From contig JACDCD010000065.1 of NCBI GenBank assembly GCA_013694625.1, positions 1-50,517 on the forward strand: DNA of 50,517 nucleotides. Reading direction: 5' to 3'. The stretch is from Actinomycetota bacterium. GTDB taxonomy: Bacteria; Actinomycetota; CADDZG01; WHSQ01. The translations under genes and the position numbers were made by a program. Shown here one piece after another: positions 1 through 1,074 of the stretch. Below the pieces are notes generated by a model. That model worked only from the letters and a program-made list of their open reading frames with translations, did not search any database and had not been told where the DNA came from. Position 1 is the first letter of the stretch. The number at the start of each line of letters is the position of its first letter.

Positions 1-1021
1 CTTCCTGCTGGCGGTTCTCGGACCGGTGCGCCGATTGCATCAATTGCAGATAGTCGATGATCACGAGTCCCAAACCGTGCCGGGCCTTGAGCCTCCGGCA
101 CTTTGCGCGTATCTCCATGAGGGTCACAGTGGCCGAGTCGTCGATGAAAATCGGCGCTTCGGCGAGCTTTCCCAGCGCAGCGGAGAGCCGCGGCCAATCC
201 TGTTCCTGGAGTGTCCCCTTGCGGATCCGCTGTGAATCGACCTTCGCCTCGGAGGAAAGGAACCGCTGCACCAGCTCGTGCCGCCCCATCTCGAGGCTGA
301 AGATCACCACCGGGAGGTTCTCACGGACGGCGGCGTGGAGGGCGAAGTCGCCGAGAAGACTGGACTTTCCCATCGAAGGCCTGGCGGCGACAATGACAAG
401 GTTGGAGGGCTGAAAACCAGAAGTCATCTCGTCGAGGTCGGGGAAGCCCGAGGCAAGGCCGGTCACCGAGGCCCCACGCTCGTAAAGAGCCTCGATCGCC
501 TCCATGTTCTCGGTCAGGAGGCCGTGAATCGGTTGCACCGATTCACGCAGTCGCCGGTTCCCGACTTCGTAGATGAGACCCTCGGCCCGGTCGATCGCAC
601 CTGCGACGTTCTCCGGCATCCCGAAGCCGAGCTCCTGCACCTTAGCCCCGACGTCGACGAGCCGCCGGAGCTGCGCTAGCTCCTCGACGATACGGGCATA
701 GTGGCGCGCCGAAGAGGCCGTCGGATAGGCATCGAGAAGCCCCAGGATGTAGGGCTTTCCACCGATGCTCTCGAGGGTGCCACGACGGCCGAGCTCGTCG
801 GCGACGGTTACCGCGTCGGCGGCTTCACCCTTGCCGTCCAGCGTGAGGATCGTCTCGTAAACCTCTGCGTGGGCGGGCTTGTAGAAGTCCTCTGAATGAA
901 GGATCTCGACGACGTTGGCGATTGCCTCACGCGATTCGAGCATCGCCCCCAGCACCGATTGCTCGGCATCGAGATTGTGCGGGGGTATCCGGTTCGGGCG
1001 CACGGATTGCACCGAAGCCAT
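1..1021 (-). CDS. dnaB: Replicative DNA helicase DnaB (N-terminal part, runs off the window)
   Basis: The hexameric helicase that unwinds DNA ahead of the replisome. About 340 codons are present, starting at ATG 1021 (MASVQSVRPNRIPPHNLDAE) and still open at base 1. The N-terminal DnaB helical domain covers roughly residues 10-110. The linker leads to the RecA-like ATPase core, with a Walker A loop reading ARPSMGKSSL, the segment SLEMGRHELVQRFLSSEA, and LVIIDYLQLM near the cut end. No intein appears in the visible part. It is the last gene of the rpsF-ssb-rpsR-rplI group but is separated from rplI by 266 bp with a terminator and an SOS box, so it is probably its own transcription unit. A GGAGG lies about 15 bases before the ATG, which is a rather long spacing. 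Confidence 0.97.
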   Translation of the reverse strand, partial: MASVQSVRPNRIPPHNLDAEQSVLGAMLESREAIANVVEILHSEDFYKPAHAEVYETILTLDGKGEAADAVTVADELGRRGTLESIGGKPYILGLLDAYPTASSARHYARIVEELAQLRRLVDVGAKVQELGFGMPENVAGAIDRAEGLIYEVGNRRLRESVQPIHGLLTENMEAIEALYERGASVTGLASGFPDLDEMTSGFQPSNLVIVAARPSMGKSSLLGDFALHAAVRENLPVVIFSLEMGRHELVQRFLSSEAKVDSQRIRKGTLQEQDWPRLSAALGKLAEAPIFIDDSATVTLMEIRAKCRRLKARHGLGLVIIDYLQLMQSAHRSENRQQE

Positions 1022-1058
1022 CTGAGCCAAAGAGTTCCTCCACCCCTGAATCGCCTAA

Positions 1059-1074
1059 TCGAACATATGTTCGA
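1059..1074. promoter_or_regulatory. Perfect LexA (SOS) box upstream of dnaB
   Basis: TCGAACATATGTTCGA is a perfect 16-bp palindrome. It matches the actinobacterial LexA box TCGAAC-N4-GTTCGA at every fixed position. It lies 38 bp upstream of the dnaB start, in the region expected to hold the dnaB promoter. The rest of the 266-bp spacer (1075-1228) shows no gene. The match is seen directly; repression by LexA is inferred from the consensus. Confidence 0.75.

Follow-up and report, generated by a model that had tools for sequence, protein, structure and literature searches.

Does an actinobacterium adjust the supply of its replicative helicase to DNA damage and, if so, through which regulators? 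To our knowledge, the SOS regulon of E. coli does not include the main fork helicase. The question is raised by a window of 50,517 nucleotides (the whole stretch of DNA analyzed here) from an uncultivated actinobacterium, where a putative LexA operator, or SOS box, precedes the dnaB gene. Specifically, a sequence scan finds, at 1059-1074 of the minus strand, the perfect palindrome TCGAACATATGTTCGA, which has no mismatches to TCGAAC-N4-GTTCGA, in agreement with the initial annotation of a perfect SOS box before dnaB.

The gene itself (2-1030, minus strand) is assigned to the replicative helicase by its Pfam DnaB N-terminal and DnaB_C domains. The contig ends within it, and the remainder is found on contig C7, which shares at least 119 bp of exact overlap; dnaB is, hence, a single gene, and no second strong DnaB was found in the genome. 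The TTG codon at 1030 is most likely the better start, because the same TTG frame and ribosome-binding site (here GGAGG, 1037-1041) recur in the congener G001. The 38 bp previously given as the gap between box and gene had been counted to an internal ATG at 1021; the box is there, and its distance from the TTG is 28 bp. As to the protein, DnaB reading frames reach 865-963 amino acids in relatives (L030, L035, L042 and others) and up to 1069 amino acids in sampled Mycobacteriaceae, which suggests inteins in dnaB of relatives, these Mycobacteriaceae included.

The upstream neighbor, rplI (1288-1740; ribosomal protein bL9, as judged from its translation), is read in the same direction, and just past its stop codon a strong hairpin is predicted by folding at about 1226-1283 (whole fold -47.4 kcal/mol, z -6.0). 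The terminator that had been placed between rplI and dnaB is borne out only insofar as a very strong hairpin is present there: it lacks a T-run, and a scan for intrinsic terminators after rplI found none with a T-run. The hairpin is a possible terminator, and transcriptional separation of dnaB from rplI appears plausible. A scan of the intergenic region for sigma-70 -35/-10 promoters found none, in line with a promoter devoid of a normal -35. A divergent gene was considered as a source of control and rejected: both neighbors lie on the minus strand, and a plus-strand reading frame at 1091-1360 overlaps rplI and looks spurious.

Would the LexA of this organism recognize the palindrome? One LexA is encoded in the genome (contig C95), with the LexA DNA-binding and S24 domains. 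A scan of the remaining genome for LexA boxes had been proposed; in pattern searches over the contigs, the exact 12-letter consensus occurs five times in 2.72 Mb, the dnaB box included, and sites with at most one mismatch number 36, versus 8 for a reversed control pattern. Three of the other four exact sites precede an Rv2578c-like radical SAM gene, a DUF6504-dnaE2 pair and a DUF222/HNH gene, respectively, and the fourth overlaps the likely start of a UvrD-type helicase gene. Less perfect sites, with one or two mismatches, stand in front of recA, ruvC, a second DUF222 gene and the gene of a DnaQ-type exonuclease; counted as GAAC-N4-GTTC, there are four boxes upstream of lexA (L022:2251-2365) and one each at recA and ruvC. 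By its sequence, the dnaB box is in the same class as the best boxes of the repair genes. Given that lexA, recA, ruvC, dnaE2 and further repair genes have the same motif in front of them, the LexA encoded here should bind the dnaB box, and the first four of these genes speak against the concern that this LexA might use a different motif.

It could be argued that the palindrome arose by chance, inasmuch as this GC-rich genome contains many single sites with one or two mismatches. The promoter site, however, has zero mismatches, and its conservation was assessed in the dnaB upstream regions of 20 class genomes, which belong to three families, and of 130 other Actinomycetota. A box with up to two mismatches, at most 300 bp from dnaB, was found in 14 of the 20 class genomes (mean 0.37 and maximum 3 in shuffles) and in 12 of the 130 others (mean 1.65, maximum 6), and eight permuted palindromes, used as a control before dnaB, occurred in 0-3%. 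In the two species of the genus, the arms of the box are identical and only the N4 differs (ATAT/ACAC), so that the box is perfect in both. The class conservation is far above that of the shuffles and the permuted palindromes; it refutes a chance origin, which we regard as hardly credible, and it confirms the expectation that the palindrome would be kept in sister genomes. In two genomes of family f40 (G113, G132), a near-perfect box, GCGAACATnnGTTCGT, lies about 175 bp before dnaB, with no PafBC-type element.

The last remark pertains to a second element that was absent from the initial annotation. Directly upstream of the LexA box, at 1075-1096 of the minus strand, which here reads TTGTCACTGGGTCTTGC-TAGTGT, lies a PafBC (RecA-NDp)-type promoter, TGTCAC-N10-TAGTGT, with TGTCAC at 1091-1096 and the -10 hexamer TAGTGT at 1075-1080. 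Single-stranded DNA activates PafBC, which enables the housekeeping polymerase to work from a -26 element instead of the -35 (PMC11804915). The PafBC motif of M. tuberculosis consists of TGTCGG, TGTCAG or TGTCAC followed by ten bases and TA-N3-T (PMC8151990), and the segment 1075-1096 is an exact match to the published form TGTCAC-N10-TA-N3-T. PafB- and PafC-type WYL regulators are encoded side by side in the genome, PafC being identified by Pfam HTH_PafC and PafB by its translation and by being the neighbor of PafC. Exact TGTCRS-N10-TANNNT sites number only 32 in the genome and include recA, uvrB, rmuC, a UvrD-type helicase gene and several DUF222/HNH genes; the reversed control gives 24, so that the count alone is weak.

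The spacing of the two halves is more telling. Within 220 bp of dnaB, GTCR-N11-TANNNT is present in 11 of the 20 class promoters, all other spacers occurring in 0-2, and in 14 of the other 130 genomes, other spacers in 0-4. The element is followed by the box within 16 nt in 11 of the 20 class promoters, where 0.00 were expected and none were seen in shuffles. In two further genomes without a strict match (G021, G123), GTCC stands at the same spacing in the dnaB promoter, with the box directly after it. One might still regard the box as an ordinary SOS operator and TGTCR-N11-TANNNT as an ordinary -10 with an accidental TGTC, the more so as the box is perfect and is kept without a strict PafBC match in four class members (G003, G018, G014, G019). 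We consider this unlikely: the distance from TGTCR to the -10 is sharply peaked at exactly 11, within the class as well as elsewhere in the phylum, the same spacing recurs in genomes that have no box (three out of three in family f12, as well as f34 and f48), and recA, uvrB and rmuC of this genome stand behind the same strict motif. With a TGTCR-type element at a fixed distance from TANNNT, both PafB and PafC encoded and the motif present at other repair genes, the element qualifies as a PafBC-type promoter.

Several other occurrences of the element deserve mention. A DUF222 (13E12-like) gene (L135:1652-1689, corresponding to G000:C22:8651-8688) also has abutting elements, TGTCGG-N10-TAGAAT followed by ACGAACGTACGTTCGA. 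Near-identical copies of a DUF222 gene at L280, L286, L291 and L302 (G000 contigs C4, C42, C62 and C150) stand behind TGTCACACCC...TA, with the ATG 6 nt past the -10 where a reading frame was found; they represent a multicopy, probably leaderless PafBC-type family. The LysM-like gene divergent from lexA has a PafBC-type promoter at 2459-2480 (L022). Finally, the dnaB promoters of G032, G046 and G060 (family f12), G084 and G153 have the PafBC-type element without a LexA box, which suggests that the activator element is more widespread before dnaB than the box.

The converse reading, in which a PafBC-type promoter carries a vestigial or non-functional LexA box whose palindrome no longer matters, draws on such cases, many phylum members having only the PafBC-type element, and on four family members (G006, G008, G011, G012) where the box is absent before dnaB and TGTCA/G with a near -10 is retained. 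A relic would decay, though, and the box of the two species of the genus is perfect and differs only in the N4, and it keeps its register with the -10 in most class members; accordingly, we give this reading very little credence. As the PafBC promoter abuts the LexA box, dnaB probably belongs to both damage regulons. The original proposal of SOS control of dnaB is, hence, well supported by sequence as far as LexA is concerned and is incomplete without PafBC.

How, then, might the two inputs be combined? Eight genes of this genome that share the promoter motif have their ATG 6-7 nt past the -10 hexamer, as in leaderless transcripts; the dnaB start is, therefore, placed about 7 nt past the hexamer, at 1068 of the minus strand, that is, inside the LexA box, which would span about -6 to +10 of the predicted transcript. 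Given this predicted start, the operator, which is kept in relatives, is placed to block the promoter. We consider it quite probable that PafBC activation and LexA repression act on one dnaB promoter and that damage raises its transcription by both routes. Under this scenario, a compact promoter of 38 bp would drive dnaB and respond to damage through two inputs. The polymerase with the housekeeping sigma factor would use a promoter without a normal -35, with TGTCAC correctly spaced relative to the -10 TAGTGT, and would be recruited there by PafBC once the latter is switched on by single-stranded DNA. A LexA dimer bound to the palindrome just downstream, over the start site, would block initiation until, upon damage, the RecA-driven cleavage of LexA removes the block. 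Undamaged cells would then maintain dnaB at a basal level that rises after damage through both routes, and the benefit would be more helicase to reload stalled or restarted forks.

The basis for such a mechanism is present in the genome: both motifs with their conservation and spacing, the genes for LexA, RecA and PafBC, and the motifs at repair genes. From this sequence record we infer binding of LexA and PafBC, the start site, induction and benefit. DNA damage probably increases the supply of helicase, whereas restart of collapsed forks, offered initially as an example of the purpose, is a guess. Against dual control, it can be held that the four family members named above lack the box and that dnaB is presumably essential: cells must still obtain sufficient basal expression despite a perfect operator over the only visible promoter, and transcripts reading through from rplI, or a second promoter, could weaken the operator's effect.

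A perfect LexA operator that covers the predicted start site of a presumably essential replication gene, is fused to a PafBC promoter and is conserved in the class suggests that the helicase supply is raised during damage, and the dnaB promoter illustrates how a single start site can receive both damage responses of actinobacteria. It is tempting to speculate that damage-inducible control of this helicase by overlapping PafBC and LexA elements is ancient and belongs to the core traits of Actinomycetota, several deep lineages and the mycobacteria having kept it and others having reduced or lost it. We put this forward with reservation, as somewhat less likely than not; if true, the damage response of actinobacteria would include helicase supply among its regulated steps. 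For direct testing, the promoter is conveniently short, and mycobacteria provide a tractable stand-in.

The mycobacteria also provide the closest comparison. Family f27 of our sample is Mycobacteriaceae: the DnaB N-terminus of G158 matches 2R5U, which we take to be the solved N-terminal domain of M. tuberculosis DnaB, in an alignment of 108 residues that shows one difference. A box precedes dnaB in four of the five sampled Mycobacteriaceae, and both elements are present in three of the five. In M. tuberculosis, dnaB (Rv0058) is reported to have a putative SOS box and to be over-expressed after mitomycin C in a partly PafBC-dependent manner (PMC8151990). These data do not support the initial view that SOS control of dnaB falls outside the usual mycobacterial regulon. 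Induction of dnaB persisted in a recA-deleted strain with pafBC knocked down (PMC8151990); therefore, a further input may exist. The sampled Mycobacteriaceae share the order of a PafBC-type element and a LexA-like box upstream of dnaB, but their box lies some 14 nt farther away from the -10, on its downstream side, and is mostly less perfect (TCGAATGTATGTTCGG), whereas here the elements abut and the box is perfect.

The LexA regulon of Streptomyces relies on a motif of the same class, and its targets include recA, lexA, dnaE2 and ruvC; the paper that describes it (PMC9380542) does not mention dnaB, and our scan of Streptomyces dnaB upstream regions found neither element. A dnaB entry in a Leptospira SOS study was rejected as evidence of LexA control. 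Dual control by an SOS box and RecA-NDp/PafBC has been described for recA and other actinobacterial repair genes (PMC8223512), where likewise both regulons converge on one gene. The recA gene of the present genome has both elements too, but its SOS box lies upstream of the PafBC promoter, whereas at dnaB the box sits on the start site of the same promoter. A dual-controlled dnaB promoter is, then, of a kind already known, and its instance in this lineage is unusually compact, perfect and class-conserved.
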